A DNA stretch of 64,000 bases from positions 1 to 64,000 of the forward strand of contig CALZJQ010000001.1 in the NCBI GenBank assembly GCA_945787895.1. The letters run 5' to 3'. The translations under genes were made by a program, and so were the position numbers. Below are positions 7,889 to 37,896 of this stretch, piece after piece. This DNA is from an uncultured Prevotella sp. GTDB lineage: Bacteria > Bacteroidota > Bacteroidia > Bacteroidales > Bacteroidaceae. Under the pieces are notes generated by a model. It made no database searches. It worked only from the letters and a program-made list of their open reading frames with translations, and was not told the DNA's origin. The first letter of the stretch is position 1; every line of letters starts with the position of its first letter.

Positions 7889-7905
7889 ATAACAAAAATA
7901 GTATT

Positions 7906-20340: not shown

Positions 20341-20508
20341 GGTTGTTTGGTTGTTTGGTCGTTTAGTTGTTTAGTTGTTTAGTTGTTTAGTTGTTTGGTT
20401 GGCTGTGCCGCAATTGAGTCGAATACTATCAACCAGACCACCAGACAACAAAACCACCAAACAACTAAACCACTAAACAACAAAACAACCAAACCACAAA
20501 ACCACAAG
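20341..20508. repeat. Word-repeat hairpin, family A, copy 1
   Basis: Fills the ftsZ-yqeY gap. Left arm 20341-20400 consists of GTTTGG/GTTTAG/GTTG words; core 20401-20434 contains GAGTCGAATACTATCAAC; right arm to 20508 is the complementary AC-rich set (CAACTAAAC, AACCAAAC). The transcript could form one long hairpin with the core as loop. Related elements occur at 23052, 25872, 37788 and, in degenerate form, 60604. Confidence 0.85.
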
Positions 20509-20511
20509 AAA

Positions 20512-20958
20512 ATGTTATTCGATCAAATAAGCAACGACATCAAGGAAGCAATGAAGGCACGCGACAAAGTGCGCCTCGAAGCATTGCGTAATATTAAGAA
20601 AGTATTCATAGAAGCAAAGACAGCCCCTGGTGCAGGTGACTCTCTTGATGATGCACAGGCACTCAAGATACTCCAGAAACTGGCAAAACAGGGACATGAT
20701 TCCGCTGACCTCTATACATCTCAGAATCGTTCCGACCTTGCAGAGGCAGAGTTGGCACAGGTTGCAGTCATTGAGTCATACCTCCCAAAGCAGATGACAG
20801 AGGAGGAGATAGAAGCCGCAGTGCGTGACATTATCGCCCAAACTGGAGCCCAAAGCATGAAGGAAATGGGAAAGGTCATGGGAGTGGCAAGCAAACAACT
20901 TGCCGGAAAGGCTGACGGAAAGAAGATTTCTGAGGTCGTAAAGCGTCTCCTTGCGTAG
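20512..20958 (+). CDS. YqeY/GatB-like protein
   Basis: 148 residues from MLFDQISNDIKEAMKARDK; an open frame to 20383 only translates the word-repeat hairpin and is rejected. It is a standalone GatB/YqeY tRNA-amidotransferase-like helical domain, with LEALRNIKKVFIEAK near residue 22, YLPKQMTEEEIE near 90 and a C-terminal GKVMGVASKQLAGKADGKKISE. The exact role of such proteins is not known; some assist tRNA-dependent amidation. The last bases of the gene belong to a 22-bp direct repeat copied 33 bp downstream. Confidence 0.88.
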   Translation: MLFDQISNDIKEAMKARDKVRLEALRNIKKVFIEAKTAPGAGDSLDDAQALKILQKLAKQGHDSADLYTSQNRSDLAEAELAQVAVIESYLPKQMTEEEIEAAVRDIIAQTGAQSMKEMGKVMGVASKQLAGKADGKKISEVVKRLLA

Positions 20959-21001
20959 TAAGACAGGCATGAAATCTTCCTCCTTGCGTAGTAAGACAGG
21001 C
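20947..21001 (+). repeat. 22-bp direct repeat across the yqeY stop
   Basis: An identical 22-bp segment (beginning CTCCTTGCGTAG) occurs at 20947-20968, including the stop codon of the YqeY-like gene, and again at 20980-21001. It is a small tandem-type duplication between this gene and dgt. Confidence 0.75.
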
Positions 21002-21058
21002 GCAATATAAGTCGCAGAGCGACCCTTTTGACAATAATTTATCTCATTCTTGGATTGC

Positions 21059-22396
21059 ATGAACTGGCAACAACTGATATCAAGCAAGCGACTCGGACAG
21101 GAATATCGGCATACGGAGCGACATGATGACCGCTCGGAGTTTAAGCGAGATTATGACCGTCTTATCTTCTCTGCCCCTTTCCGTCGCCTTCAAAACAAGA
21201 CACAGGTATTCCCTTTGCCGGGCAGTATCTTTGTTCACAACCGCCTTACGCATAGTCTTGAGGTGGCAAGTGTAGGTATGTCGCTTGGCAATGATGTGGC
21301 TCGTGACGTGATACGTCGCCATCCTGAACTTGCCGGCACATTGATGGAAGAGATTGGCACGGTGGTAGCAACAGCTTGTTTGGCTCACGATATGGGCAAT
21401 CCTCCTTTCGGACATTCAGGAGAGAAAGCACTCCAGGCGTTCTTTACGGAGGGAAAGGGTGCTCGTCTCCGTCAGTTGTTGGACAAGGAATTCTGGGACG
21501 ACATTACTCATTTTGAGGGCAATGCCAATGCTTTCCGTCTTCTTACCCATCGCTTTTGCGGCAGAAGGAAGGGAGGCTTTGTCATGACCTACACAATGCT
21601 TGCATCCATAGTGAAATATCCTTTCGCTTCGGCTTACGCTGGGGAACATGGCAAGTTCGGCTTCTTTACATCAGAATCAGAATTGTTCTATCGCGTGGCA
21701 GAAGAGTTGGGAATGAAGTGTCTCAGTGCAAATGGTGAGCCATTGCGTTATGCGCGTCATCCTCTCGTCTATCTTGTCGAGGCTGCCGATGACATATGTT
21801 ATGAGATAATGGACATCGAGGATGCGCACAAGCTCAGGATATTGTCCTTTGAGGAGACGAAGGAACTGCTCCTCGGCTTCTTCGATGACGATGTAAGGGA
21901 AAGCATTCTCCACCGTATCACGGACGAGGAGTTGCTGGATGAGAATGAGCAGGTGGTGTATATGCGTGCCAGTGTCATCGGAAAACTGGAGAATGTGTGT
22001 GTCGAAGCCTTTCTGAATCATGAACAGGAGATACTTGACGGCACTTTCGAAGGGTGTCTTATCGACCATATTCCAGAGCGTGAACGGCAGGCATACCATC
22101 GTTGTACAGAGACTGCCTTTGCCAAGATATATTGCAGCAAGCCTGTTCTTGACATAGAGTTGGCGGGTTATCACATTATCAACACGCTTATGGAGCAGAT
22201 GACAGATGCAGCAGAGCATCCTGACCGCTTTTATTCCAAGCAGTTGTTGCGAAGGGTAAGCAGTCAGTATGACATACATTCTGCTGACCTTCAGACGCGT
22301 ATCATGGCGGTAATAGACTTTGTAAGCGGTATGACTGATGTCTTCGCACTTGACTTCTACCAGAAGCTCAACGGCACCAGCCTGCCTATTGTATAG
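21059..22396 (+). CDS. dgt: dGTP triphosphohydrolase-like HD protein
   Basis: 445 residues from MNWQQLISSKRLGQEY; an in-frame TTG three codons earlier is less likely. This is a deoxyguanosinetriphosphate triphosphohydrolase-type HD-domain enzyme, which would cleave dNTPs to nucleoside and triphosphate. Seen: FRRLQNKTQVFPL near 46, RLTHSLEVA near 66 (first metal His), and the HD motif in CLAHDMGNPPFGHSGE near 113-128. It is followed by dut, so dNTP-pool control genes sit together. Confidence 0.9.
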   Translation: MNWQQLISSKRLGQEYRHTERHDDRSEFKRDYDRLIFSAPFRRLQNKTQVFPLPGSIFVHNRLTHSLEVASVGMSLGNDVARDVIRRHPELAGTLMEEIGTVVATACLAHDMGNPPFGHSGEKALQAFFTEGKGARLRQLLDKEFWDDITHFEGNANAFRLLTHRFCGRRKGGFVMTYTMLASIVKYPFASAYAGEHGKFGFFTSESELFYRVAEELGMKCLSANGEPLRYARHPLVYLVEAADDICYEIMDIEDAHKLRILSFEETKELLLGFFDDDVRESILHRITDEELLDENEQVVYMRASVIGKLENVCVEAFLNHEQEILDGTFEGCLIDHIPERERQAYHRCTETAFAKIYCSKPVLDIELAGYHIINTLMEQMTDAAEHPDRFYSKQLLRRVSSQYDIHSADLQTRIMAVIDFVSGMTDVFALDFYQKLNGTSLPIV

Positions 22397-22471
22397 GGAA
22401 TCAGGCATCAAGGTCATCCTGTTGGAAAATAGATTATTCATCTTTCGCTTGTTATTGACTTGCTCAGTTTC

Positions 22472-22574
22472 ATACGGTTATGCGGTTTTAAGGTTATACG
22501 GTTATGCGGATTATAGCGTAACCTCCGTAAAAGCGAAGCGACCGTACAACCATATAACCTTAAAACCGAAGAAG
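22472..22574. repeat. Word-repeat hairpin, family C, copy 1
   Basis: Lies between dgt and dut. The left arm has GGTTATGCGG, GGTTTTAAGG and GGTTATACGG words; the centre includes CTCCGTAAAA; the right arm has the complement (ACCGTACAACC, ATATAACC, TTAAAACCG). A second member is at 39416-39533. Confidence 0.75.
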
Positions 22575-22609
22575 TTGAGCCTGCGAAACTTCATTAGATA
22601 ATATAGAAT

Positions 22610-23047
22610 ATGTTGAAAGTAAAAGTAATAAATAAAGGTTCACAACCTCTTCCGGAGTATGCCACGCCGCAGAGTGCAGGCATGGATCTCCGTGCGAATA
22701 TCTCTGAGTCTGTCACTCTCAATCCTCTTGAGCGCAGGCTGATACCTACAGGATTGCACATTGCTCTGCCCATAGGTTATGAGGCGCAGATACGTCCTCG
22801 TAGCGGTCTTGCCTTGAAACATGGCATTACAGTGCTCAATTCTCCTGGTACTATAGATGCGGATTACCGCGGAGAATTGATGACATTGCTCATCAATCTC
22901 TCGCAAGAGCCTTTTGTCATCAATCCTGGTGAGCGTATAGCACAGATGGTTGTGGCACGCCACGAGCAGGTAGATTTCGTCCTTGTCGATGAACTTGACG
23001 ACACGGAGCGTGGCGCTGGCGGTTATGGACATACAGGGAGGAAGTGA
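22610..23047 (+). CDS. dut: dUTP diphosphatase (trimeric dUTPase)
   Basis: 145 residues. It hydrolyses dUTP to dUMP, keeping uracil out of DNA. The five family motifs are present in order: [38 protein letters not shown] and [10 protein letters not shown] (the C-terminal arm closing over the active site of the neighbouring subunit). Normal length. Confidence 0.95.
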
Positions 23048-23051
23048 ATGC

Positions 23052-23226
23052 TTGTTGTTTAGATGTTTAGTTGTTTGGTTGTTTGGTTGTTTAGTTGTTT
23101 AGTTGTTTAGTTGGATGTGTCGCAAATGAGTCGAATGCTATCAACAAAACAACCAAACAATAAAACAACCAAACAACCAAACAACAAAACAACTAAACAA
23201 CAAAACAACCAAACAACAAAACCACA
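23052..23226. repeat. Word-repeat hairpin, family A, copy 2
   Basis: Fills the gap from the dut stop to the TPR-gene ATG at 23228. Left arm 23052-23112 (GTTTAG/GTTTGG words), core 23113-23145 (GAGTCGAATGCTATCAAC), right arm of AACCAAACAA-type words. The right arm is open in frame with the TPR gene and mimics a longer N-terminus rich in Asn, Lys, Thr and Gln. Confidence 0.85.
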
Positions 23227-23227
23227 C

Positions 23228-25009
23228 ATGCGCATAATATCCATCATATTCCTCATGTTCTTCGCCGTTCCCTCTTTCTCACAGCAGAAAGAGCAGGGTA
23301 AAGGGGCGGAGATAACTACGCAGAAGCAAGGCCTTTCTGTGGAGGAGATGCTCAAGTACCGTTACTATTACTTGGAATATGCCCGACATGAGGAGGCGAG
23401 GGAATATGCAGAAGCCTATGAGTTGTTGCGTCATTGCCTGCAGGTAAATCCCCAGGCTGCCGAGGCGCATTTCTCTATCTCTGCTTATGAAACTATATTA
23501 GGACATGACTCTGTAGCGATAAGTCATTTGGAGACTGCAGTCAGTCTTGAACCATGGAATGATGATTTTCTGGAGGGATTGGCAGAACAGTATTTCTATA
23601 TTGCTACAAAGGAAAATAATAAGAGAGATGAGAAATATCTGAAACTATCGGCAGAGGTATATGAGACTCTCTCGACTACATATCCCGACCGTACAGAATA
23701 TCTTCAGGCTCTTGTTCAGATATATGGTAATACCCGTGACTATGCCAAGATGCTGGATGTCCTCAATCGCATAGAGATACAGGAGGGACAGAACGAAGAT
23801 CTGACTCTGACAAAGATGCAGGTCTATTCAGCCATGGGTGATGAGCAGGGAGCATACGATGAGTTGCAACGCCTCATGAAGAATAATCCCAATGACCTCA
23901 ATTACAGGGTGATGACAGGCAACTGGCTTCTCAGCGTAGGACGTAAGGACGAGGCTTATAAAGAGTATGTAGCCGTATTGGAGGAAGAACCAGAGAATGC
24001 TCTGGCTCAGATGTCGCTGATGGATTATTATCGCAGTATTGGCAAGACAGACGACGCTGACAGTCTCATGTATGCTATTCTTGAAAATCCAAGAACAGAA
24101 GCCGATACCCGTATCACACTGATGCGACAGGTGGTGCAGGACAGCGAACTGACAGGAGGAGATAGTTTGCGCGTGCTCAATATCTTCAACCGTGTGCTCT
24201 CTCTTCCGCAGCGCACGTCGGAGATGGCAGAGATGAAAGTGGCATATCTTGCGGAGAAAAAGATGTCGGAGGACAGTATAAAGGTTGCTCTCCGTCAGGT
24301 GTTGGAGATTACTCCAGAGAATACTCAGGCACGTCTCACGCTTATTGATATGCTATGGCGTGACTCTGTCAGTGAAGAGGTGATAAAGGAATGCGAGGAA
24401 GCCATAGCCTATAACCCGGAGGAAGCGGCTTTGTATTATTATCTCGGCTTGGCACACTACTTCGTGGAGGATAACAATGGCGCATTAGAGGCTTTCCGTC
24501 GAGGTACGGAGCATTTTGATGAAGAGACACCGATAGTCATAAAGTCCAACACATATATGCTGATGGGCGACTTGCTCCATGGCATGAACCGCCCAAAGGA
24601 GGCATACGAGGCCTATGACAGTTGCCTTGTATTCAGTCCTGACAAGGTGGAGTGTCTCAACAACTATGCCTACTACCTCTCTGAGGAGGGTATTGATCTA
24701 AAGAAGGCTGAGCAGATGAGTCTAAAGACTATCAAGGCTGAGCCGGAAAATTATACATATCTCGACACTTACGCATGGATACTCTACAAGCAGCAGCGGT
24801 ATGAGGAGGCACGTATCTACATCGATCAGGCGGTGAGAGCTGATATGGACAGTATCTCTGCCGTGTTCTATGACCATGCAGGCGATATATATATAAAGTT
24901 GGGGCTTAGAGATGAAGCAACGGAGTTTTGGCAAAAGGCTCTCGACGACGATATAGAGAATGCTGCCGAAATAAGAAAGAAGATAACAAAAGCGAGGAAA
25001 AAGAAATGA
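23228..25009 (+). CDS. Exported tetratricopeptide-repeat protein
   Basis: 593 residues from MRIISIIFLMFFAVPSFSQQ, a clear signal peptide; the longer frame starting at 23111 translates repeat DNA and would bury it. Helical TPR pairs run through most of the protein (for example YAEAYELLRHCLQVNPQAAEAH near 60, and ALYYYLGLAHYFVEDNNGALEAFRRG near 405). It is probably periplasmic, or outer-membrane associated, with a scaffold role. The stop overlaps the next gene by 4 bp, so it is coupled to the DUF4292 lipoprotein and may act with it. Specific function unknown. Confidence 0.85.
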   Translation: MRIISIIFLMFFAVPSFSQQKEQGKGAEITTQKQGLSVEEMLKYRYYYLEYARHEEAREYAEAYELLRHCLQVNPQAAEAHFSISAYETILGHDSVAISHLETAVSLEPWNDDFLEGLAEQYFYIATKENNKRDEKYLKLSAEVYETLSTTYPDRTEYLQALVQIYGNTRDYAKMLDVLNRIEIQEGQNEDLTLTKMQVYSAMGDEQGAYDELQRLMKNNPNDLNYRVMTGNWLLSVGRKDEAYKEYVAVLEEEPENALAQMSLMDYYRSIGKTDDADSLMYAILENPRTEADTRITLMRQVVQDSELTGGDSLRVLNIFNRVLSLPQRTSEMAEMKVAYLAEKKMSEDSIKVALRQVLEITPENTQARLTLIDMLWRDSVSEEVIKECEEAIAYNPEEAALYYYLGLAHYFVEDNNGALEAFRRGTEHFDEETPIVIKSNTYMLMGDLLHGMNRPKEAYEAYDSCLVFSPDKVECLNNYAYYLSEEGIDLKKAEQMSLKTIKAEPENYTYLDTYAWILYKQQRYEEARIYIDQAVRADMDSISAVFYDHAGDIYIKLGLRDEATEFWQKALDDDIENAAEIRKKITKARKKK

Positions 25010-25872
25010 AGAAATACCTTTATATATTTGTAATAGTCACATTAATGGCATCATGTGCCACTCAGAAGAGGGTGGGGGATGCTGGAGACACACCGTCGGC
25101 ACTTGTCGATAACAATCTTGCAGTGCAGAAGATAAACTATCTCCGCAAGGTGATGGATAATGCTGTATATAGTCAGAACATAGTGTCGAAGATAGACTTT
25201 ACCCTCAATGCCATGGGGAAAAAGACTTCTGTAGATGGCAAACTGCAGATGAGGAAAAATGAAGTAGTGCGTATCACGCTCTCGCCCCTTGGCATTATGG
25301 AGGTGGGCAGACTGGAGTTTACCCCTGACGGAGTGCTCCTCGTGGATCGTATTAATAAGGAGTACGTACAAGCCTCCTATTCCGACCTTGATTTCCTGCG
25401 TGACAACGGTCTCGATTTCTATTCACTGCAGGCTTTGTTCTGGAATCAGTTGTTCCTTCCTGACGTGCAAAGGGTAAGCGATGCGGCGCTCCGTAATTTC
25501 GATGTGGATATGCTGACACAGAACTATCGCACTGTCACGATGAAGTCAAAAGATTTGCATTTCACGTGGACTACCGACCCAAAGGATGCGCATATCACAT
25601 CAGCAAAAGTGGAATATGCTAAAGGAACGTCACGTTCCTCAGTGGCAAGTTGGGAGTACAGTAACTTTACTGCCGTAGGCAAGAAATCGTTTCCTGCCCA
25701 ACAGGTTCTCTCATTCTCTACCGAAGCCATGCGGCAAGAAGCTTCTTTGTCGATGACTATCAAGATGAAGAAGATGACTACAGATAGCGACTGGGAATCA
25801 AGGACCACGGTATCAGGCAAGTACACTAAGGTGAATGCAGATGATGTGCTTCGCAAGTTGATGGGAATGTAG
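25006..25872 (+). CDS. DUF4292 lipoprotein
   Basis: 288 residues from MKKYLYIFVIVTLMASCATQ, where LMASC is a lipobox (lipid on Cys17). The body resembles DUF4292, a Bacteroidetes family with a LolB/LolA-like fold expected (repeated amphipathic strands such as VVRITLSPLGIMEVGRLEF). It follows the TPR gene with a 4-bp overlap and precedes an EnvC-like gene, a common Bacteroidetes order. A role in envelope lipid or lipoprotein handling is plausible but unproved. Confidence 0.82.
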   Translation: MKKYLYIFVIVTLMASCATQKRVGDAGDTPSALVDNNLAVQKINYLRKVMDNAVYSQNIVSKIDFTLNAMGKKTSVDGKLQMRKNEVVRITLSPLGIMEVGRLEFTPDGVLLVDRINKEYVQASYSDLDFLRDNGLDFYSLQALFWNQLFLPDVQRVSDAALRNFDVDMLTQNYRTVTMKSKDLHFTWTTDPKDAHITSAKVEYAKGTSRSSVASWEYSNFTAVGKKSFPAQQVLSFSTEAMRQEASLSMTIKMKKMTTDSDWESRTTVSGKYTKVNADDVLRKLMGM

Positions 25873-26050
25873 TTGTTTTGTTGTTTAGTTGTTTTGTTGT
25901 TTAGTTGGCTGTGCCGCAATTGAGTCGAATACTGTAAACTAAATCACTAAACAACAGAACAACATAACAACCAAACAACAAAACAACCAGACAACAAAAA
26001 CAACAGAACAACCAAACAACAAAACAACCAGACAACAAAACAACAAAAAA
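25872..26050. repeat. Word-repeat hairpin, family A, copy 3
   Basis: Begins at the last base of the DUF4292 stop codon (TAGTTGTTTTG) and ends just before the next ATG. Core 25907-25940 has GAGTCGAATACTGTAAAC. The right arm is longer than the left, with many AACAACCAGAC and AACAACAGAAC words. Confidence 0.82.
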
Positions 26051-26055
26051 AATAA

Positions 26056-27705
26056 ATGTCTCGCTTACTCATCATAATACTCTGTTTCGTCATGTTCCTG
26101 ACTCCGACATTAGCCCAAACGAAGTCGAAGACAGCGACAAAGAAGCCTACGTCTTCACGTACAGTCGCGCAGAAAAGCAGGACTTCGGGCAGTACGAAAC
26201 AAAGTACAAAGACAAAAACAAAAACAAAGACAAAAACAAAAACCGCAAAGGCACAAAACAGCAAAACAACCAAACCACAAAACAACAAAATCTCCGGTCT
26301 CCGCAGTGAGCAGGAGAAGATAAAGCGTAATATCCGCAAGCAGGAACAGGCATTGCGTGCCAACAAAGCACAGGTGAAGGAAAAACTGAAGAACCTGATG
26401 ATTATCAACGGGGAGATGGATCGCCGCCGTCAGAGCATCGACTCCATCAACCATGACATCAATCGCATCGACAACAATATCTCTTTGCTGCAGTCACAGT
26501 TGGACGAACTGCAGAGCCAACTTGATGGTCGTAAACAGGAGTACATGAAATCTCTGAGGTATATGGCAAAGCGGCGTGGTATTCATAACGAACTGATGTT
26601 TATCTTTTCTGGCAAGGATTTCAAACAGATATATCGTCGTATGCGTTTCATGCGTCAATATGCAGCCTATCAGCGTACGCAGGGCAAGGCATTGCAGATG
26701 CAACAACAGAAAGTGACTGATAAGCGTGAACAACTGCAACAGACGCGCGGCGAGAAATCTACACTCCTCCGCAAGGGACAGAAAGAGCATGCCGCCCTTG
26801 AGGGACAGAAAGTGGAGCAGCAAAAGGTGGTCTCCTCTCTGCAGAAACAGCAGAAAACCATCCAAAGCGTCATCGACGAACAGCGCAAGAAAGACGCTGC
26901 CATCAACGCACAGATTGACCGTCTCGTGGCGGAAGAAGTGGAGCGTGCACGTCAGGCTGCCATAGCAGAAGCCAAACGCAAGGCAGAGCAGGCTGCGGAA
27001 GCGAAGCGCAAGGCAGAACTGCTGGCAAAGAAAAAGGCCATTGCCGAGGCTGCCGCACGTGAGAATGCCCGTCGCGTGGCGGAAGCAAAGGAGGCGGAAC
27101 GCCGTGCCAAGGCGGTTGCCAAGGCTTCAGTCAACAAGGATGCAGAGGAGCGTGCCCGTGCCGAACAAGTAGCGCGTGAGGCAGAGTCGGCACGTATAGC
27201 GATGGAGAAAAAGGCACGCATGGATGAAGAACGGGCAGCCAAGGAGGTGGAGTCAGCAAAGAAAGCCTCCGAGGAAGTGGCACGGCTGAGTAGTGCCGAC
27301 CGCCTTATCAGTGGTGGCTTTGAGGCTAACAAGGGGCGTCTGCCCTCTCCATTGGCGGGCGGACGCATAGTAAGCCATTTCGGACAGCACGGAGTAGATG
27401 GACTCCCCGGCGTGGTCCTCGACAACAAAGGCATCAATATCCTTGGGCAACCAGGCAGTGTGGCACGCAGCATCTACGACGGAGTAGTCAGTGCGGTGTT
27501 CAATGCAGGAGGCATGATGGGCGTCCTCGTGCGCCACGGAGCTTATATCTCAGTCTATTGCAACCTCAGAAGCGTCAGCGTCTCACGAGGACAGAAGGTC
27601 TCCGCACGCCAGGCTCTCGGCACTGTCGGTAGAGACAACATCCTGCAGTTCCAGCTTCGGCGCGAGCGTGACAAACTCAATCCTGAAAAGTGGATAGGGA
27701 GGTAG
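26056..27705 (+). CDS. EnvC-like murein hydrolase activator (degenerate LytM)
   Basis: 549 residues. Signal peptide (about 1-21), a Lys/Thr-rich low-complexity linker (about 22-78), coiled coils (about 80-260), a long Ala/Glu/Lys helix (about 270-410) and a C-terminal LytM/M23 domain (from GGRIVSHFGQHG to the end). The zinc-binding HxH of active enzymes is not seen: the segments read HGAYISVYCNL and ILQFQLRRE. That argues for an amidase activator like EnvC rather than a peptidase. Part of the linker, AQNSKTTKPQNNK, is encoded by the same AC-rich words as the hairpin upstream. Confidence 0.85.
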   Translation: MSRLLIIILCFVMFLTPTLAQTKSKTATKKPTSSRTVAQKSRTSGSTKQSTKTKTKTKTKTKTAKAQNSKTTKPQNNKISGLRSEQEKIKRNIRKQEQALRANKAQVKEKLKNLMIINGEMDRRRQSIDSINHDINRIDNNISLLQSQLDELQSQLDGRKQEYMKSLRYMAKRRGIHNELMFIFSGKDFKQIYRRMRFMRQYAAYQRTQGKALQMQQQKVTDKREQLQQTRGEKSTLLRKGQKEHAALEGQKVEQQKVVSSLQKQQKTIQSVIDEQRKKDAAINAQIDRLVAEEVERARQAAIAEAKRKAEQAAEAKRKAELLAKKKAIAEAAARENARRVAEAKEAERRAKAVAKASVNKDAEERARAEQVAREAESARIAMEKKARMDEERAAKEVESAKKASEEVARLSSADRLISGGFEANKGRLPSPLAGGRIVSHFGQHGVDGLPGVVLDNKGINILGQPGSVARSIYDGVVSAVFNAGGMMGVLVRHGAYISVYCNLRSVSVSRGQKVSARQALGTVGRDNILQFQLRRERDKLNPEKWIGR

Positions 27706-27710
27706 GATGA

Positions 27711-27882
27711 TGGTTGTAGTACTTGGATGTGGGTTTTGGGTTGTTGGTTTTTGGTTAGGTTACCTTTTCCTCTTGAGAAATCTCCATTGGCAACGCATTA
27801 CAAACCAACAACCAAAAACCCACAACCCACAACCAGGTACTACACCCCACAACCAAAAACCTAAAACCAAAAACCAAAAATA
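27711..27882. repeat. Word-repeat hairpin, family B, copy 1 (inverted core)
   Basis: Fills the envC-trpB gap. Left arm of GGTTTTTGG/GGGTTTTGGG words, core about 27758-27802, right arm of CCAAAAACC/CCACAACC words. The core, including CTCCATTGG and GCATTAC, matches the reverse complement of the cores at 40830-41040 and 42725-42850, so the element lies in the opposite orientation here. TACCTTTT at the left edge of the core would be a -7 box pointing towards trpB. Confidence 0.8.
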
Positions 27883-27889
27883 TAAAATC

Positions 27890-29257: not shown

Positions 29258-29317
29258 CATTTTGTCCTATATGACAGTCGGTTGATTGACTAACGCAACT
29301 TATTAGTTTTCAACAGA

Positions 29318-29380
29318 ATATAGAAAGCGTTGATAATATCGTGCGAAAGCAGTGCTTTTGCATGGTAATATCAACGCTTT
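29318..29380. terminator. Hairpin downstream of trpB
   Basis: AAAGCGTTGATA (about 29327) and its complement TATCAACGCTTT (about 29369-29380) form a perfect 12-bp stem with further partial pairing inside, followed by TGTCGT rather than a long T tract. It may be a terminator or processing hairpin. The stem sequence recurs near 2658. Confidence 0.45.
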
Positions 29381-29578
29381 TGTCGTCTAATCTCAATGAT
29401 ATTGTGGTGTGAAGTCATTGAGTTTGTTTTTGTATCATTTTGTCCTATTGTCTTTGTCCTATCCGCCAAGCAGGCAGGCGGGCATGGAAGCTGGAAATGA
29501 CCCATATGTCTGATATATGTTGGAAAATGAGCAGGATATTCGTTTTTGTGCGACGACAAAGCGTATAAATCGACTCTC

Positions 29579-29629
29579 ATATCGTACATTTTGACCTTCA
29601 TATCGTATCTTTTTACTAACATATTGTAC
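29579..29629 (+). promoter_or_regulatory. Three 9-bp direct repeats at 21-bp period
   Basis: ATATCGTAC (29579-29587), ATATCGTAT (29600-29608) and ATATTGTAC (29621-29629) are spaced exactly 21 bp, two helical turns. The 9-bp repeat plus 12-bp gap is the layout reported for LytTR-family response regulators. They lie 76-126 bp upstream of the -7 box at 29705, so they are a candidate activator site for the C10 protease gene. Confidence 0.6.
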
Positions 29630-29704
29630 AAACGGCTAAAAATCAGCGGGTTAATGAAGGCGTGTTTTTTTGGTTTCCATAAGGCTGAAATGAAAAACAT
29701 TCTT

Positions 29705-29712
29705 TATATTTG
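29705..29712 (+). promoter_or_regulatory. -7 box of the C10 protease gene
   Basis: TATATTTG matches TANNTTTG exactly, 51 bases before the ATG. No TTTG at the right -33 distance is evident, consistent with activator dependence. Confidence 0.5.
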
Positions 29713-29763
29713 CAGCCCAGCGAAACTTGAGTTAAGATAGTTGAATTATAAAATTTTGTCTTT

Positions 29764-32700
29764 ATGGGAAGATTACTGACTTTTCTGTCTGTCCTGCTCA
29801 TTGCACACCATGTGTGGGCAGATGACGTGACGGTTGAACAGGCAAGGGAGATTGCCGCAAGGTTCCTCAACAACAGATTGTCGTCTGGGAGCGGCGGTGT
29901 CGCCCGGGCAAAACGTGTCATGAACGAAAACGCGCTCCGTCCTGCCTACGTGGCACGAAAGACGCCGGATGCACTGGCAGACCTCTACGTCTTCAACCAA
30001 GATGACGGCAAGGGCTTCGTCATCGTGGCCGGAACAGATGCCGTGCCGGGCAGTGTCCTTGCCTACAGCGACGAAAACAGTCTGGTCATTGACGGGAACA
30101 CTCCGGAGACTGTACTTTTTTTGCTGGAAGGATTCCAGAGCGGCGTGCAGCAGATGCGCCGGCTGGATGTCAAGGTTGCGTCCGGTGAATCGGAAAGTTC
30201 TGAGGTGAGGCCTATAGTCGGTCCCTTGCTTAAGGTGAACTACAATCAAAGTGAGCCTTTCAATGCTTTCACTCCTGTTGTCAGCGGCAAGAATTGCACC
30301 ACAGGCTGTGTGCCTACCGCCGCAGCCCAGATAATGGCATACTATCACTGGCCTGAGAGCGGCTTGGGCGAGCATACCTCAACCTGGACGACGGGGCAGT
30401 ATGGTCACTTCTCTGAGTCAGACTATACAGATTGGAGCGACAGCGGAGTTGCACGGCTGATGGCAGACCTTGGCACGGCTGCTGACACGCAATATGCCAT
30501 ATCTTTGACGGGTACGGAGGAAGAGTCTCTTTTCCGTGCCTTACGCATGTATTTCAGGTACTCCGTAAATGATATGTACCGTTCGGACGAACATCTGAAG
30601 GAAGTTCTCGACGCTGGTCGCCCCGTCTATTATTGTGGAAAGGGAAATAGCCCCGGTTCGCCAAGAAATATACATTCATTTGTATGTGACGGATATGATT
30701 CCAACGATTTTTTCCATTTCAACTTTGGCTGGGGCGGAGATTATAATGGATACTATCTCACGACATGGGTGCGGCCGGGATATGACAATTTCAGTGGTTG
30801 GTTTACAGCCAAGGTCTTTATCCCGGACTTTTCTCCGGCGGTAGAGCACGAGCGTTGTGTGTATCGTGCGGTGGGTGATGATGAAGCAGAATTGTTGGCT
30901 TGCAGCGAAGTCAGGGATTTGGTCATTCCCTCCGAGGTGATTATAGAAGGCAAGGTGAGGAAGGTGACCGGAATTAATGAAACTGCCTTCCAAAACGCTT
31001 ATGTGGAGTCGTTGTCCTTGCCTGGCTCGATTAAGTCGGTCAGGCGGGAATGGTTCAGGAACTACTACGGAAGGATAAAGAGCATCACCCTTGGTGAGGG
31101 CACTGCGGAGATTGGGCCGAAGTGTTTTATGTCTGTCCCTTTACTTGAGACCATAACCCTGCCTTCCACGCTGGAAAAGATAGGCAGTGCGGCATTTGAC
31201 AATCTCACAAAACTGACTACCGTAAGGGGATTGGAAAACTCAAGGGTGACAGAGTTGGGCGACAGTTGCTTCATGTACTGTTCTGCCCTGAGACAAATCA
31301 ATACTTCAGGGATAAAATACTTTGGAGCGAGAAGTTTCTACAATTGTAATGAGTTGCGGTCCATTACCCTGCAGGACGGAGCCGCAATAGGCGACCGTGC
31401 ATTCATAGGATGCAAAAATCTGGACGCATACGACCTCAACATTGAGAATCTCAGTTCCATAGGAGATTATGCATTCTGTAACTGTCAGATATTCCGCAAC
31501 AAGCTTGTGTTCAGTCAGGTCAAGTACGTTGGCGTCGGTGCCTTTGACTTCACTCCCATAGATGGCGTCAATGTCAGCAGCAACGATATTCGCGAGGTCG
31601 TCATACCGTCATGTACGGAATTTATCGGTGCCTGCGCCTTCAACATCAGCAATCTGGCGAACATAGAGGTGGCTGAGGATAATCCTGATTATGTGTCGAT
31701 AGATGGAGCGTTGTTTTCAAAGGACAGGAAAACCCTTTGTTTCGTGCCTTGCCAAAACATACAGCCTATAAACCAGAGTAGCGGACCGGGCTGCTACAGT
31801 GTACCGGAAGGCGTGACTCACATCATGGAGGGTGCCCTTGCCGGCCATAACTACATTCATATTCCAGAGTCCGTCACGATGATAGATTCTACGGCTTTTA
31901 ATTCGCCTTATCGTATATACTGTTATTCGCAGACCCCGCCAACGTATCAGAAACAAAACAGCTTGACTTGTCACACTGAGATACACATGCCTTACGGATG
32001 TCTTGACAAGTACCGCGAAGCTAAAGGATGGAGGGACAGCTACTATTTCAAGGATGACATTTATGGTGGCTATCCTGATGCAAGCAAGGTGCAGATGATG
32101 AAAGTGTATTATCATCACAGTGTATGGGATGGCATGGCCTGGGTAGAGAAGAATCTGCAAAAGAACATTGGTTTCAGTGAAATACGTTTTGAAGAAGATA
32201 ACATCTGGTCCGTATTCATGGGGGATATAAGATATGAAGAGCTCGACAGCATTGTGCTAAGTGGAGTGTTTGATGGTTCAAACTTCCGTTATCTGGCTCT
32301 GGAACACTGGGAAGACGGCAAGATGGTAGTTGAAAGTCAGGTTGCCCTGAAAGATATCAACAAGCTGGTGATTGAGAACCGCGTCTTGAAGATTCTGGAC
32401 AGCAAGGGGAATGTAATCAAGGGCAAAAATGTTGACGAATATTTTGAATGTGCATTCACTACGACGGACTCATATTCAGACGTATTCCTCTGCAAATACA
32501 AATATCTGTCGATGTATAACGAATGGATTGACGCTGAATTGTCGGTACCACTAACCAGATATGTCGCTTTCCATGCAGAGGATGATTTCGTACTCTTTGA
32601 CACTTCTTTTCCGGATATAAACATGGGAAAATACCTGAAGGAACTCACAGTCCCCAAGCCGCGCATTGATGACTATCCCGTATGGGGCAACATTCTCGTA

Positions 32701-35322
32701 TCTTTCCGCAACGGCAACCAAATCACTATTCCAAGGGAGAACTTTGCGCAGCTCACTTTCAAGGATGGTCTTGCCAACGTAATAGGCTATGATGGAGAGT
32801 TGCAAAACTCATTCGATGCCAAGAAGCTGCGCAACATCATTTTGTGTGACTATGACCTCACCTCATATCGTAATGCAGATTGGGCGGGGGACAATTCTCC
32901 CAAGATGTATGTACACTCGGGTAACGGGTATAAGGAAATACCTATCGCTGAGTGCGACTCCGTGCTGTCGGATGGCGTCGCCCTGCTCATTGACGATGAA
33001 GAGTACGGCATGAGCAGTATTGACAGCATCACGTTCGCACGTCCTGCGGCAGCAGGGAAGGGAGTGTTCCAGGTAAGCGACATGTGCCGTGAAATCGTCA
33101 CGCCTTCCTACCGCATCGACTTCGGAGCAGCCATTGATCTGGGTGAGGGCAAGACAGTCACCGTAGAGCCGATGCGCAGTGACGCCATGATTTTCAGAAA
33201 GAATCTGAGAGACGTGAAGTCATACGAGGTCAGCATGAGCGACGGGACTCACGAGCTTGGCGGCGTGGCAAGGATAAGGATTCCGCTGGAGATGGCTGAG
33301 GGCTATGCCCCCGGGGCGGCATGGTACAATCAGGACTCTGCCCGCTGGGAATCCATATGTTCATTCTATGACGGGAAGGCACGTGAAGTAGTGATTCTTA
33401 CCGACCACCTCTCTGAGTTCTCTGTCTTTAACGTCAAGCGCAAGGACACCAGGGCAGAATACATCGTGCTCTCAGACTTCGACAATTTCATGCTGCAAAA
33501 TGACATATCGAGCCAAGAGGCTGCAAAGCTGCTTCTTGAATTGTCGAATATCGATTCTTGGGACACCGAAGGCTACCGCGACTGGGCTGCAGAGAAGTAT
33601 GGCAACGCATCGCTGTGGGGCTTAGACATCGGCTATAACCTGGTCAAGGCGGCCGGCTATGAAAATGCGTTCCTTGAGAGATTTGGAGATGCTATCGGAC
33701 GTTTCGGAGCGGCTGTGAGCGCATTTCAGATTCTCCGCAACATTGAGGACGGAAAGGACTACGATGCTGCGGCAGGGATGCTGAAACTTGCACTCGACCA
33801 AGGAATAAGTTACCTCTGCACCATCATTGGCGGTTCGGCAATGTATGCGACAGCCGCATCGGTTGCCTTCATCAACTATGCACTCAATAAGATTGGTGAA
33901 GAGGCATGGAATGGTCGCAAGGACCTGTATCGTGCAGCCTACAGTATGTATTATCATTCGCGGGAAGGCTATCGTTCGCGACCTAAGTGGGTGGAGATGA
34001 TTAAACCGCTGTTTACCACCCAAAACCTTTCCGAGGACGAGATGAAAGAGGAAATCGACAGAATGGTGACCGAATACTCCAGAAAGTTCTGGGAAGACGC
34101 AGGAGTCATAGGATACTATCTCAACGAGGCCCGTAACCTTAAATTCACGGCACTTGGAGGTATGACGGAGTCTCTCCAAAATGAAATATCAAACGAAGGA
34201 AAGGCATGGGTTTACCAATTCTCCATTGCGCCTGCAATAAAGAGCATCAATGATGAAGCCATGAAGATGAACTGGGATGAATGTTACAAGCAGATAAAGA
34301 GATATACGGATATACTCAATGAGGTCATGACACTCAATCTCTACGACCGCACTTCCACGTCTGAAGGCAGCGAGTTTGCAGGCTGCATCGTCCGTTTCCA
34401 GGAGTTGCCGGAGACGATTCTCGATCCCCAGAATTGGCAATGCCGTCTCGACGAAGATGGAAATGGTCAGATTCAGTTCAGAGCCTTCGCACAGATCGCC
34501 AATCAGATAGAACCTATACTTGAAGTCTATGACCCCGAGGAAGACAGGGTGGTCAATGCCATTACGTTCTCGCTCGGTTATGGTCCCAGGAGTATTGATG
34601 TAAGCAAAGGTGCCGAGGATTATGAACCGATGGCATACATAGACGACATGGAACTGCATGTCACTACCGATCCCGACACCTTGAAAATTACGACACCCAT
34701 GAGCGGCGAGACGCTGAGGCATCATTATGACGGCAGCTATTCAAAGGTGTTCAAGCAGTATGACCATTATTCCTATGTATATCCGGGAATGTTCACGGAT
34801 GACATCCGCGAATGTATAATGCAGAGCATTCCACTGCTCGGCAGGTTGCCTTCTGGAAACATTGAAATCAAGAGCGACGGGCTGACATTGACTGGAACGT
34901 TCAGCGAAAAGACCGGGACAGGCGATGGAACATTCACACTCGACTGCGAGAAATTCTTCCAGTACGCCACTGCGGAAGAAGCCAAGAGCTGGTGGATTTC
35001 GTTCTACGAAGGTATAGACATAGTGCCGGATGCCTGGGACGATACCGACTGGATCGTCCACGGTAATTTACTCGACGGAACGGTGGGGCATAAGATTACC
35101 GGCAATTTCACCGTTGAGCAGGTGACGCCTTACCGCCTGTCATATACGTTCATGGGCAGCGGAACATTCACCATTGACGGCAATACGCTCGAAATCAAGG
35201 ACTACGTGCCAGAGATGTCGGATTACCGTAAAGCCGATGCTTGCTCCAACCCATGGTCAATCAGCGGAACTTGTGATTGGAAAGACACTTTCCAGATGAA
35301 GATAGTGAAAGAAGACAGATGA
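29764..35322 (+). CDS. Streptopain-like C10 cysteine protease with BspA-type leucine-rich repeats
   Basis: 1852 residues. Signal peptide 1-19, then a propeptide (about 20-130; ADLYVFNQDDGKGFVIVAG) and a C10 peptidase domain (about 140-350). The active site is intact: Gln162, catalytic Cys182 in TGCVPTAAAQIM, His304 in IHSFVCDGYD and the following GWGG at 322-325. Residues about 385-700 are BspA-like LRR_5 repeats (for example LPGSIKSVRREWF, LPSTLEKIGSAAF). Later parts hold strand-rich segments (DSIVLSG, DSITFARP) and a helical region around 1230-1550. No sorting domain is evident at its own end. It is probably a secreted or surface protease that binds host or diet proteins. Its small neighbour may be its partner. 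Confidence 0.85.
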   Translation: MGRLLTFLSVLLIAHHVWADDVTVEQAREIAARFLNNRLSSGSGGVARAKRVMNENALRPAYVARKTPDALADLYVFNQDDGKGFVIVAGTDAVPGSVLAYSDENSLVIDGNTPETVLFLLEGFQSGVQQMRRLDVKVASGESESSEVRPIVGPLLKVNYNQSEPFNAFTPVVSGKNCTTGCVPTAAAQIMAYYHWPESGLGEHTSTWTTGQYGHFSESDYTDWSDSGVARLMADLGTAADTQYAISLTGTEEESLFRALRMYFRYSVNDMYRSDEHLKEVLDAGRPVYYCGKGNSPGSPRNIHSFVCDGYDSNDFFHFNFGWGGDYNGYYLTTWVRPGYDNFSGWFTAKVFIPDFSPAVEHERCVYRAVGDDEAELLACSEVRDLVIPSEVIIEGKVRKVTGINETAFQNAYVESLSLPGSIKSVRREWFRNYYGRIKSITLGEGTAEIGPKCFMSVPLLETITLPSTLEKIGSAAFDNLTKLTTVRGLENSRVTELGDSCFMYCSALRQINTSGIKYFGARSFYNCNELRSITLQDGAAIGDRAFIGCKNLDAYDLNIENLSSIGDYAFCNCQIFRNKLVFSQVKYVGVGAFDFTPIDGVNVSSNDIREVVIPSCTEFIGACAFNISNLANIEVAEDNPDYVSIDGALFSKDRKTLCFVPCQNIQPINQSSGPGCYSVPEGVTHIMEGALAGHNYIHIPESVTMIDSTAFNSPYRIYCYSQTPPTYQKQNSLTCHTEIHMPYGCLDKYREAKGWRDSYYFKDDIYGGYPDASKVQMMKVYYHHSVWDGMAWVEKNLQKNIGFSEIRFEEDNIWSVFMGDIRYEELDSIVLSGVFDGSNFRYLALEHWEDGKMVVESQVALKDINKLVIENRVLKILDSKGNVIKGKNVDEYFECAFTTTDSYSDVFLCKYKYLSMYNEWIDAELSVPLTRYVAFHAEDDFVLFDTSFPDINMGKYLKELTVPKPRIDDYPVWGNILVSFRNGNQITIPRENFAQLTFKDGLANVIGYDGELQNSFDAKKLRNIILCDYDLTSYRNADWAGDNSPKMYVHSGNGYKEIPIAECDSVLSDGVALLIDDEEYGMSSIDSITFARPAAAGKGVFQVSDMCREIVTPSYRIDFGAAIDLGEGKTVTVEPMRSDAMIFRKNLRDVKSYEVSMSDGTHELGGVARIRIPLEMAEGYAPGAAWYNQDSARWESICSFYDGKAREVVILTDHLSEFSVFNVKRKDTRAEYIVLSDFDNFMLQNDISSQEAAKLLLELSNIDSWDTEGYRDWAAEKYGNASLWGLDIGYNLVKAAGYENAFLERFGDAIGRFGAAVSAFQILRNIEDGKDYDAAAGMLKLALDQGISYLCTIIGGSAMYATAASVAFINYALNKIGEEAWNGRKDLYRAAYSMYYHSREGYRSRPKWVEMIKPLFTTQNLSEDEMKEEIDRMVTEYSRKFWEDAGVIGYYLNEARNLKFTALGGMTESLQNEISNEGKAWVYQFSIAPAIKSINDEAMKMNWDECYKQIKRYTDILNEVMTLNLYDRTSTSEGSEFAGCIVRFQELPETILDPQNWQCRLDEDGNGQIQFRAFAQIANQIEPILEVYDPEEDRVVNAITFSLGYGPRSIDVSKGAEDYEPMAYIDDMELHVTTDPDTLKITTPMSGETLRHHYDGSYSKVFKQYDHYSYVYPGMFTDDIRECIMQSIPLLGRLPSGNIEIKSDGLTLTGTFSEKTGTGDGTFTLDCEKFFQYATAEEAKSWWISFYEGIDIVPDAWDDTDWIVHGNLLDGTVGHKITGNFTVEQVTPYRLSYTFMGSGTFTIDGNTLEIKDYVPEMSDYRKADACSNPWSISGTCDWKDTFQMKIVKEDR

Positions 35323-35348
35323 CAGTTCAATAATCAGACAATAGAACA

Positions 35349-35867
35349 ATGAAACATACAAATCATATCATGGCAGCAGCCTTGGCGTTGCTTACGGCAA
35401 TGCCGGCAGCAGCACAGGGTGACAGCACCGTCACGGACTATGAATACATGAATGTCCTGACTGCGGATAGGAATATCAAGTACGAAAGGGCAACGGTCCG
35501 GAAAATCACTTTCGGAAATGGCAAGGTGAAGGTGTATTCCAGTGAGGGCATACGCGAGTTTGACCAGATAGACCTCAGGATGCTCATCTTCAGCAACGAT
35601 ATGATTGTCGATGATATTCGGGAGACAGACGCCTCACCCGAAGGGGGTGTCTTCAGGAAAGGGATACTCGGCAATCTCAATGTGCCTGACGGCACGCCTG
35701 TGCATGTCTATTCCATCTCAGGACTGCTCTTCTCAACAGCGGAGGTAAATCAAAACGCAGTAAACCTTTCCAGCCTGCCCAAAGCCACCTATATAGTGAA
35801 GGTGGGAAAGAATGCCTACAAGATTCAAGTTGAGGAAAACCCTCAGAGGTTTTCCATGATGAAATGA
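35349..35867 (+). CDS. Small exported protein with T9SS-like sorting domain
   Basis: 172 residues, 26 bp after the protease gene and probably in the same transcript. Signal peptide ends near AAAQG (residue 24). The middle (VRKITFGNGKVKVYSSEGIREFDQID) resembles the strand modules found in Prevotella surface proteins. The last ~50 residues (VPDGTPVHVYSISG, then LSSLPKATYIVKVGKNAYKI) look like a type IX secretion C-terminal sorting domain. Possibly a separate carrier or surface anchor for the protease; that pairing is inference. Confidence 0.65.
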   Translation: MKHTNHIMAAALALLTAMPAAAQGDSTVTDYEYMNVLTADRNIKYERATVRKITFGNGKVKVYSSEGIREFDQIDLRMLIFSNDMIVDDIRETDASPEGGVFRKGILGNLNVPDGTPVHVYSISGLLFSTAEVNQNAVNLSSLPKATYIVKVGKNAYKIQVEENPQRFSMMK

Positions 35868-35874
35868 TACGATA

Positions 35875-35908
35875 AAGGCTGTAATCGGAGACTCAGGATT
35901 GTAGCCTT
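35875..35908 (+). terminator. Terminator after the protease pair
   Basis: Stem AAGGCTGTAATC with GATTGTAGCCTT (10 of 12 pairs), a 10-base loop, followed by the T-rich ATTTCTTG. Confidence 0.6.
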
Positions 35909-35917
35909 ATTTCTTGT

Positions 35918-36150
35918 ACGCTCGGCATGAGTGTTGTCTAACGGGTGCAAGTCCCGAAGCCGCCCTGATAGCGGGAAGGCTATAGTCCGAGGCAAGCAAA
36001 TCCTCCAACGAGGCGGAATATGAATGAAGCCTGCGGAGCAGATGTGGAGCACACGCACCTTGGGGCGTAATGTTTCCACACAAGACTATGGCGCATGACG
36101 GCTTAGCAACGCCATCAGACTGACCTCCGTTGCCAACAGTTGAATCCGCG
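35918..36150 (+). ncRNA. Group II intron-like RNA remnant
   Basis: About 230 bases of structured, non-coding sequence: GTGTTGTCTAACGGGTGCAAG at its start with a CGGG/CCCG stem, then AGTCCGAGGCAAG, and TGAATGAAGCC followed by GCGGAGCAGATG. These resemble domain I of bacterial group II introns. No reverse transcriptase and no domain V/VI hairpin were found, so it looks like a 5' fragment. The assignment is by visual resemblance only. Confidence 0.45.
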
Positions 36151-36226
36151 GGCTACGGACTGCAGGATTTCTTGTTAATCAGTGTTAAAGAAGCAATCTT
36201 GTTTTCGTTCTACGAATGGAAATGTG

Positions 36227-36234
36227 TATTTTTG
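36227..36234 (+). promoter_or_regulatory. -7 box upstream of the FabK-like gene
   Basis: TATTTTTG matches TANNTTTG, 38 bases before the ATG. A weak TTTC lies 20 bases upstream (36203-36206). Confidence 0.45.
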
Positions 36235-36272
36235 TGTCGTGAAACTTTTTTTGAATACAAACTAATGACATT

Positions 36273-37211
36273 ATGAGTATGAAATCATCAAGGATATGTG
36301 AGTTGTTCGGAATAGAATATCCTATCATAGCTGGTGGGATGGTATGGTGTAGCGGTTGGCGATTGGCGGCAGCGGTGAGTAATGCAGGAGGCCTGGGACT
36401 GATAGGAGCGGGAAGTATGCACCCTGAGACCTTGGAGGAGCATATCATAAAGATGAAGTCGGCTACTGATAAGCCTTGGGGCGTCAATCTGCCATTGATG
36501 TATCCAGAAATAGAGAATGTGGTGGATATCCTTGTCAGGCATGGCGTGAAGATAGTGTTCACATCGGCTGGCAGTCCGAAGAAACTGACCCCTCGTCTCC
36601 ATGAAGCAGGGATGAAGGTGGCTCATGTGGTGTCGAGCAGTCTCTTTGCAAAGAAATGTGAGGAGGCAGGAGTCGATGCTGTCGTGGCAGAAGGCTTTGA
36701 GGCTGGTGGGCACAACGGCAGAGAGGAATTGACCACGATGGTACTCGTGCCGCAGGTGAGGAAAGCAACGTCACTGCCACTCATTGCTGCTGGTGGCATC
36801 GCGTCGGGTGCTGCCATGGCTGCAGCAGAATGTCTTGGCGCAGAGGGCGTGCAGATAGGTACTCTCTTTGCACTGAGCAAGGAGAGTTCGGCGGCAGATG
36901 AGTTTAAGAACTACTGTCTCTCCTTGGGGGAGAATGATACTATGCTGGTGTTGAAGAAACTGGCTCCGTCACGATTGGCAAAGAATGCGCTCTTCGACCG
37001 CATCAAGGAGGCTGAGGACAGGGGTGCATCGGTAGAGGAGCTGAGGGCTATTCTCGGTCAGAAATCTACTAAGCGAGGTATCTTTGAAGGAGATGTGGTA
37101 GGAGGAGAGATAGAAATCGGACAGGCTGTAGCGGGCATCACGGAGATAAGGAGTGTGGCAGATATCATGAATGACATTATTGGAGAATATGATAAGAAAC
37201 ATATTATTTGA
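36273..37211 (+). CDS. FabK / nitronate monooxygenase-type FMN enzyme
   Basis: 312 residues, a TIM-barrel flavoprotein. The start gives CELFGIEYPIIAGGMVWCS; later come AVSNAGGLGLIGAGSM (about 34-49), VDAVVAEGFEAGGHNG (about 134-149) and LPLIAAGGIASGAAM (about 170-184), the FMN phosphate site. Such proteins are either enoyl-ACP reductase FabK or nitronate monooxygenase, and the sequence alone does not decide. Met3 is an equally good start. The 3' end overlaps the HAD gene by 23 bp, so the two are co-transcribed. Confidence 0.82.
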   Translation: MSMKSSRICELFGIEYPIIAGGMVWCSGWRLAAAVSNAGGLGLIGAGSMHPETLEEHIIKMKSATDKPWGVNLPLMYPEIENVVDILVRHGVKIVFTSAGSPKKLTPRLHEAGMKVAHVVSSSLFAKKCEEAGVDAVVAEGFEAGGHNGREELTTMVLVPQVRKATSLPLIAAGGIASGAAMAAAECLGAEGVQIGTLFALSKESSAADEFKNYCLSLGENDTMLVLKKLAPSRLAKNALFDRIKEAEDRGASVEELRAILGQKSTKRGIFEGDVVGGEIEIGQAVAGITEIRSVADIMNDIIGEYDKKHII

Positions 37212-37806
37212 CATGGGTGGCGTCATCTTTCGGCAGACGACGAAAGAGGCGGTCCGCAGGTTTGCTGAAGCGGGAATAGATACTGAAAAGTATATGGGAG
37301 AGCATGGGCAGAAGGGTTTCTTCCTCGACATAGAGACGGGGAGGATAGACACTGACGAGTTCTGCCGCAGGATGGCTGAGGAGAGCCATCGCGAGAGTGT
37401 CACTTACGAGGAGGCGGAATACTGCTGGCTCGGCTTTGTGGGCGAGGTGAGGCGTGAGTACCTCGACTGTCTGACGAGACTCAAGGAGTCATATCATCTC
37501 TGTCTGCTTACCAATACCAATCCGTTTATCATGAACTATATGCGCAGCAGCAGGTTTTGTGCAGAGGGGAAGCCTATCTCCGATTATTTCCACAAGCTCT
37601 ATTGCAGTTATGAGATGCAGCTCTATAAGCCGCATCCCGACTTCTTCCGTCATGTCCTTGAAGCAGAGGGAATGAATGCAGACGAATGTCTGTTCATTGA
37701 TGATAGTATAAAGAACGTGCGTGGGGCGGAAGCTGTTGGCATTCACGGACTACACGTTCAGCAGAACGAGGATTGGACACCGTTGGTCAGTTGTTTGGTT
37801 GTTTAG
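37189..37806 (+). CDS. HAD-family phosphatase (IA-type)
   Basis: 205 residues from MIRNILFDMGGVIF. HAD motif I is seen as LFDMGGVIF (the second Asp is replaced by Gly, as in the HAD-IA epoxide-hydrolase-like group), motif II as LLTNTNP, the motif III lysine near YKPHPDFF, and motif IV as CLFIDDSIKN. Substrate unknown. The last codons (SCLVV) and the stop codon TAG are supplied by a family A word-repeat, so the natural C-terminus may have been replaced or extended. Confidence 0.85.
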   Translation: MIRNILFDMGGVIFRQTTKEAVRRFAEAGIDTEKYMGEHGQKGFFLDIETGRIDTDEFCRRMAEESHRESVTYEEAEYCWLGFVGEVRREYLDCLTRLKESYHLCLLTNTNPFIMNYMRSSRFCAEGKPISDYFHKLYCSYEMQLYKPHPDFFRHVLEAEGMNADECLFIDDSIKNVRGAEAVGIHGLHVQQNEDWTPLVSCLVV

Positions 37807-37896
37807 TTGTTTAGTTGTTTAGTTGTTTAGTTGGCTGTGGCAATGAGTCGAATACTATCAACCAAACAACCAAACAACAAGACAACTAAACAACAG
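37788..37896. repeat. Word-repeat hairpin, family A, copy 4
   Basis: GTTTAG/GTTTGG arm overlapping the HAD gene end, core 37833-37863 (shortened to GGCTGTGGCAATGAGTCG, then AATACTATCAAC), and an AC-rich right arm. A GAACCCACCT string at 37934-37943 resembles one end of the MITE but has no partner. Confidence 0.8.

Follow-up and report, generated by a model that had tools for sequence, protein, structure and literature searches.

The window analysed here is a 64,000-nt stretch (contig CALZJQ010000001.1, positions 1 to 64,000) of an uncultured Prevotella species, whose genome assembly comprises 2.76 Mb on 198 contigs and is 88.85% complete. Several of its intergenic gaps harbor a repeat, here denoted family A, that consists of a 5' arm of 8-nt words, a core of approximately 36 nt, and a 3' arm of complementary words. 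The commonest words of the left arm are GTTGTTTG, GTTGTTTA, GTTGTTTT, and GTTGTCTT (GTTGTTTR type), and the core ends in GAGTCGAATRCTATCAAC or a near variant thereof. An earlier note on this DNA had assigned elements at four loci to one family. We locate these elements at 20342-20505, 23052-23225, 25872-26044, and 37790-37894: the core GAGTCGAATACTATCAAC has 4 matches within 3 mismatches in the window, compared to 0.03 expected, none of 100 shuffles reached 4 matches, and each of the 4 cores is flanked by an arm of GTTGTTTR words and a complementary arm. The constituent parts are listed below.

20342..20397, + strand: left arm of copy 1, GTTGTTTR words, abutting the ftsZ stop codon (stop at 20340)
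20398..20433, + strand: core of copy 1, GTTGGCTGTGCCGCAATTGAGTCGAATACTATCAAC, a match to the core motif
20434..20505, + strand: right arm of copy 1, AC words, ending a few nt 5' of the yqeY ATG (20512)
23052..23109, + strand: left arm of copy 2, 3' of the stop codon 23045-23047
23110..23145, + strand: core of copy 2, 18-nt motif with one difference
23146..23225, + strand: right arm of copy 2, stopping just short of the ATG at 23228
25872..25903, + strand: left arm of copy 3, starting on the final base of the preceding stop codon (25870-25872)
25904..25939, + strand: core of copy 3, 18-nt motif with two differences
25940..26044, + strand: right arm of copy 3, 5' of the ATG at 26056
37790..37829, + strand: left arm of copy 4, with the stop codon TAG of the upstream frame (37804-37806) inside the arm
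37830..37862, + strand: core of copy 4, left side three bases shorter
37863..37894, + strand: right arm of copy 4
60610..60632, + strand: left half only (GTTGTTTGGTTGGCAGTGTCGCA), followed by a ACAAAAAC tract to about 60705, without the GAGTCGAAT core

The elements had been described as filling whole gaps. Copies 1-3 indeed occupy nearly all of their stop-to-start gaps (20341-20511, 23048-23227, and 25873-26055), whereas the gap of copy 4 is only partly filled, with about 70 nt between the end of the element and the next ATG. The window copies are 105-174 bp long; the median over the genome is 169 bp as measured by script, which includes some overshoot. The arms of copy 1 form an inverted repeat with 82-84% identity, and complementarity in the listed arm pairs of family A ranges from 82 to 95%. 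The predicted RNA hairpins of copies 1-4 have folding energies of -41 to -63 kcal/mol (stretches of 115-146 nt), corresponding to z-scores of -8.7, -9.1, -5.0, and -6.4, respectively, relative to 200 dinucleotide shuffles. None of the 4 copies has a T run 3' of its AC-rich 3' arm, so that this feature of an intrinsic terminator is absent. The degenerate fifth element suggested at 60604 did not hold up: the site retains the left half alone, without a core, and no hairpin is predicted (z = +1.64, with 193 of 200 shuffles folding equally well or better). The opinion that no named repeat class fits agrees with an Rfam scan of the window (0 matches at gathering score) and with full-text literature searches on the arm words and on repeats of this kind, which returned no report of family A, most subscription journals being outside their coverage.

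The family extends well beyond the window. In the host genome the core has 89 matches (at most 3 of 19 positions mismatched), compared to 0 for the reversed control; together with the 4 matches versus 0.03 expected in the window, this rules out chance occurrence. The earlier note had allowed for unrelated cores or an assembly artefact. The cores are related, copies are found on many contigs with different flanks, and an artefact is ruled out by these varied flanks as well as by comparable families in relatives. The count of 89 is a lower bound, since two-armed elements without a core exist outside the core-matching contigs: 10-kb stretches from 19 contigs without a core match contain 4 two-armed elements, 3 of which have no core within 4 mismatches. 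These 190 kb, which together with the window serve as background for the gap contexts, were drawn from contigs without core matches and are hence non-random.

Outside the host, the exact core is absent from all 397 other sampled congeners, and its one occurrence among 398 genus genomes is the host itself. With one mismatch allowed, a single match, without arm words, is found among 59 other relatives; the near-match in genome G010 (no arm words, coding-sequence-like) is rejected as a family member. A search of 84,980 named species yields 17 single core matches, below the approximately 60 estimated by chance, and none of the 17 has arm words nearby. Spread by phages or plasmids is likewise rejected: viral contigs contain 0 core matches, and plasmids yield no match to copy 1. 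Judged from the genomes searched, family A appears to be confined to one species.

Gene context, gap filling, arm pairing, tags, and target-site duplications were evaluated for 87 two-armed copies, which remain of 95 core places after 8 with a missing arm were dropped. Genes are called on both sides of 75 of these copies, the other 12 being located at contig edges. Among the 75 copies, 55 lie between co-directional genes (core along transcription in 28, against it in 27), 13 between convergent genes, and 7 between divergent genes. The common orientation relative to transcription noted earlier therefore holds for the four window copies, but not for the genome. In the fetched host DNA the GT arm comes first and the AC arm last in all 92 two-armed clusters; because the element reads alike on both strands, GT words follow the flanking stop codon and AC words precede the flanking start codon. 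Only 1 of 190 word tracts is placed inside a called gene, and family A is thus extragenic. The element covers at least 90% of the gap in 28 of the 48 gaps shorter than 400 nt, a proportion that is too high, as the arm script overshoots by about 20-40 nt. The outer arm end lies at most 16 nt from the codon in 53 of 88 stop-facing cases compared to 26 of 92 start-facing cases (Fisher p = 2e-5); part of this difference is expected, as starts need free upstream sequence and start codons were called by script.

The equal orientations, together with the convergent and divergent copies, point to a spread at the level of DNA and imply that any effect is strand-independent. We consider it reasonably probable that family A is a species-specific dispersed palindromic repeat, which likely spread as DNA into short gaps and provides a predicted hairpin boundary on both strands. 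A non-autonomous mobile element had been among the options named earlier, and a non-autonomous dispersed element is supported as one option.

The same counts bear on the other option, an element of operon mRNA: a hairpin for processing or protection, with the core acting at the RNA level between genes that share a transcript. Such a role would agree with the strong predicted RNA hairpins, the placement directly 3' of stop codons, and the four window copies that all point along transcription, but it is contradicted by a core that faces both ways equally often in co-directional gaps and also occurs between convergent and divergent genes. Moreover, no covarying pairs are found across the core halves among 75 distinct cores, and the core folds hardly better than shuffled sequence (-6.0 versus -5.0 kcal/mol). 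A conserved stem inside the core is hence rejected, and we regard the operon mRNA element as quite improbable. The core-pairing test, the core column table, the in-register arm identity, and the gap background are based on an earlier set of 85 copies, whose search pattern skips a weaker core that precedes a stronger one in the same source (the copy at 25872 was missed).

The description of a conserved core with variable arms is confirmed, with the conservation of the right half of the core being partly built in by the search pattern. The lengths of the left and right arm are uncorrelated (r = -0.04). Over the core-proximal 40 nt, arms pair with their own partner at -32.7 kcal/mol and with foreign arms at -31.9 kcal/mol (p = 0.09, 62 copies), and in-register arm identity does not distinguish own from foreign arms either (p = 0.32, 61 copies). 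Own arms thus match no better than foreign ones, and a scenario in which the arms were copied from each other is rejected. The pairing of the hairpin seems to be kept by a shared vocabulary of words rather than by base-by-base compensation, of which family A provides an example. Arm pairing that is neither correlated in length nor private to a copy fits independent slippage and exchange between copies, in line with the previous suggestion that arms may grow by slippage. We note that a promoter motif (TANNTTTG) occurs 12 times on both strands within the 15 kb of elements of the 85-copy set, a count without control. Integron attC sites were set aside on the order of their motifs.

Arm words are also found beyond the host species, whereas the core, which the earlier note had suggested may be the functional part, was seen in the host species alone. 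Runs of three GTYGTTTR words are present in 9 of 248 other genomes of the taxonomic family, belonging to the genus of the host and to three further genera; the reversed control has 0 matches throughout. The sequence GTTGTTTDGTTGTTTDGTTG is present in 8 of 99 other congeners; its reversed control matches in five genomes, with 74 matches in the host, and one of the 8, G028, has 13 reversed-control versus 2 true matches and is not relied on. In genomes G021 and G084 the arm words flank other cores, and elsewhere the tracts have a single arm, in several cases stopping a few nt short of an ATG. At the loci from other genomes, 27 tracts face a start, 13 face a stop, 8 lie within a called gene, and no gene is called for the other 5; the GT arm comes first in all 10 two-armed clusters seen in other species. 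At locus L103 (relative G034, 1909-2213), the same GT words are repeated in tandem with a period of 45 nt inside a called open reading frame.

These occurrences speak for an origin without any mobile element, namely slippage-prone word tracts that arise in place in gaps, with a passive core: outside the host species, and in other genera too, the words are present without the family A core, frequently in a single arm that stops a few nt short of an ATG. Within the host, a recognisable core is missing from 14 of the 92 two-armed clusters and from 18 of the 24 further clusters that have a single arm. Against such an origin stands the core itself, whose roughly 36 nt are conserved at dozens of sites that are otherwise unrelated; this requires copying, and we rate an origin without a mobile element as rather unlikely.

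Among known systems, family A works like a repetitive extragenic palindrome (REP) or a miniature inverted-repeat transposable element (MITE), yet it fails tested defining features of both. REPs are reported to be high-copy extragenic palindromes, with several types per organism, that are located mostly behind genes in co-directional or convergent gaps; they are 20-40 bp long and carry a GTAG or CGTC tag, the GTAG types being linked to the RAYT protein, and roles in termination and message stability have been proposed (PMC3733652). Like REPs and BIMEs, family A is high-copy (the 89 core matches), extragenic, and palindromic, and as in the REPs described there its copies lie behind genes and mostly in co-directional or convergent gaps. 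A RAYT-type REP, or a MITE with conserved terminal repeats that is moved by a known insertion sequence of the genome, could account for these properties. Unlike REPs, family A is untagged, far longer than 20-40 bp, and has word-built arms: GTAG or CGTC is found within 10 nt of the outer end in 24 of 87 copies, compared to 29 of 87 control windows located 50-70 nt outside. No Y1 transposase scores above the cut-off, and family A fails the tests for RAYT-type REPs with respect to tag, size, and RAYT. In comparison to MITEs, its inverted arms differ between copies in their length and in the order of their words, its outer ends appear unconserved with no fixed terminus found, and a target-site duplication was not seen in a weak test. 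Taken together, we consider assignment to either class improbable.

The nearest lineage-specific repeats of related bacteria are BrickBuilt and PINSR, both of which differ in build. BrickBuilt, a MITE of Porphyromonas gingivalis, consists of 23-nt tandem units between a leader and a tail, with small inverted ends and a reported GAAA or AAAA duplication, and its units expand and contract between strains (PMC4596501). Like family A it is a lineage-specific intergenic repeat, and its host is a related bacterium; unlike BrickBuilt, family A consists of two opposed arms of 8-nt words around a core, with no duplication seen. PINSR has a 188-bp consensus and 177-184 copies with no gene inside, and is reported without terminal inverted repeats. 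It is likewise lineage-specific and intergenic, but family A has inverted arms; the two are set apart by description, not by sequence.

The nearest relatives of the host found among 299 genus genomes are G135, G182, and G095, with 77% DNA identity at ftsZ. All three retain much of the window's gene order and lack the exact core; G135, G095, and a long stretch of G182 have a mutual mean amino-acid identity of 93-95% over matched proteins. The genes ftsZ and yqeY are adjacent in 10 of the 29 loci examined, and in all 10 they are separated by a gap of 5-90 bp without an element, compared to 171 bp in the host. The relatives harbor hairpin families of their own. One consists of TGAAAAR words that surround an inner ATACAAGTTA...TAACTTGTAT repeat, and the corresponding probe (one mismatch) has 256 matches in G135, 112 in G182, 481 in G095, and 1 in the host (reversed control: 51, 21, 75, and 1, respectively). 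A second family, with arms GGCCTCTCCCCCCGCCCTCCCCCGTAGGGAGGGAGCCGG, has 177, 95, 125, and 0 matches in the same genomes (control 0). Like family A, the TGAAAAR and C/G-rich families of the relatives form hairpins that begin at the stop codon, take up most of the gap, and exist in many copies; unlike in family A, no common sequence is seen. In one case (L279, G135) a TGAAAAR element is nested within another TGAAAAR element.

Several of these hairpins are found at the gene pairs of the window. A C/G-rich hairpin is located directly 3' of ftsZ in G135, G182, and G095; in G095 the gene matching 22610-23047 is followed by a TGAAAAR hairpin (the gap of copy 2), and in G135 a C/G-rich hairpin precedes the gene matching 26056-27705 (the gap of copy 3). 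The gap behind the gene matching 21278-22396 contains three different hairpins in the three relatives (z = -14.9, -6.9, and -10.6), and further exchanges occur at matched gaps between G135, G182, and G095. Among gaps of 40-450 nt, strong hairpins (z of -4 or below) are predicted in 8 of 24 for the window, in 8 of 14 on the G135 contig, in 3 of 12 in G095, and in 8 of 16 and 1 of 3 in two G182 stretches. More gap-filling families, C/G-rich as well as A/T-rich and varying at shared gene pairs, were noticed in the same relatives (L254-L257, L269-L296, L298-L305).

Such gaps might be hairpin slots across the clade, in which a long hairpin between stop and start is kept but its sequence is free, each lineage draws on its own 7-8-nt vocabulary (GTTGTTTR in the host, TGAAAAR or C/G-rich arms in the nearest relatives), and unrelated hairpins replace each other at shared gene pairs. 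We regard this reading as tentative and rather doubtful. Some matching gaps are short in one species (6 bp at G135_17 and 17 bp at G182a_14), and for more distant relatives 8 of 9 measurements at the gaps of copies 2 and 3 gave 0-53 bp, the ninth being 144 bp as called. The gap of copy 3 folds only weakly better than shuffled sequence in G135, G095, and G182 (z = -2.7, -2.8, and -3.1, respectively, for the stretches as first cut out). Independent insertion into short gaps explains most of the gap-sharing, and no slot rule is needed. Different families at the same gene pairs of close species nevertheless amount to a natural replacement experiment, by which a hairpin that is kept while its sequence is free becomes testable. 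This touches on a long-standing question: do palindromes between genes persist as selfish DNA, or do they act as gene-boundary devices?

For a repeat dispersed as DNA, the following sequence of events can be proposed. Replication slippage would lengthen or shorten the arms in steps of 8 nt, with words being shared between copies, and copies would be moved or copied by some enzyme, which is probably not RAYT. When transcribed from either side, the RNA would fold directly 3' of the stop codon, and the hairpin may shield the 3' end of the upstream message or slow read-through, as proposed for REPs. The hairpins are likely mobile or replaceable parts and, by analogy, probably act as boundary structures between genes; if they do, this would explain why gaps tolerate or retain hairpins that differ in origin.

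Several observations weigh against this interpretation. No mobilising enzyme was identified in a search that covered the Y1 transposase family alone: PF01797 gives a single match of 22 bits at a cut-off of 23 in a host genome that is 89% complete, with the control positive in 5 of 14 genomes. Target-site duplications are not seen, at least 5 nt being shared in 3 of 85 copies compared to 6.7 expected by re-pairing, in a test that is weak due to the low complexity of the element ends. Start codons and small genes were called by a simple script, and the apparent gaps at convergent sites are long (median 875 nt), so that part of the gene contexts may be misassigned. Finally, the absence of family A that suggests movement is seen in species no closer than 77% at ftsZ.

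A number of other repeats are located next to family A or in the same window. A MITE-like repeat of approximately 196 bp with inverted ends AAGGTGGGTTCTATTAATTC occurs at 3690-3885 and 7695-7890 of the window and at 3923-4118 of locus L024, where the copy sits inside a family A element, between left arm and core. An insertion-sequence-like end, TAGGGTGTCCAGTTA, abuts the arm words of family A at 4 of the 5 places where it was found in the fetched DNA (L019, L025, L056, and L057), as though it targeted the arms. A hairpin-rich intergenic repeat (TTTTGTCCTATCGACTTATTTT... and GCGTTGATATTAC...GTAATATCAACGC) has a family A copy as its neighbor in 4 of 5 matches to its probe; it was noticed at L004, L009, L010, and L019, and similar stretches of the window are 2656-2718 and 29310-29403. 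At L009 the adjoining family A copy has the opposite orientation. At L012 and L061 of the host genome, an inverted left half of the core (GTTGGCTGTGCCGCAAT, other strand) adjoins a complete copy of family A. The gap behind the gene 21278-22396 of the window contains a second word-built inverted repeat at 22475-22568 (GGTTATGCGG, GGTTATACGG), and this gap as a whole folds weakly better than shuffled sequence (z = -2.6 to -2.8).

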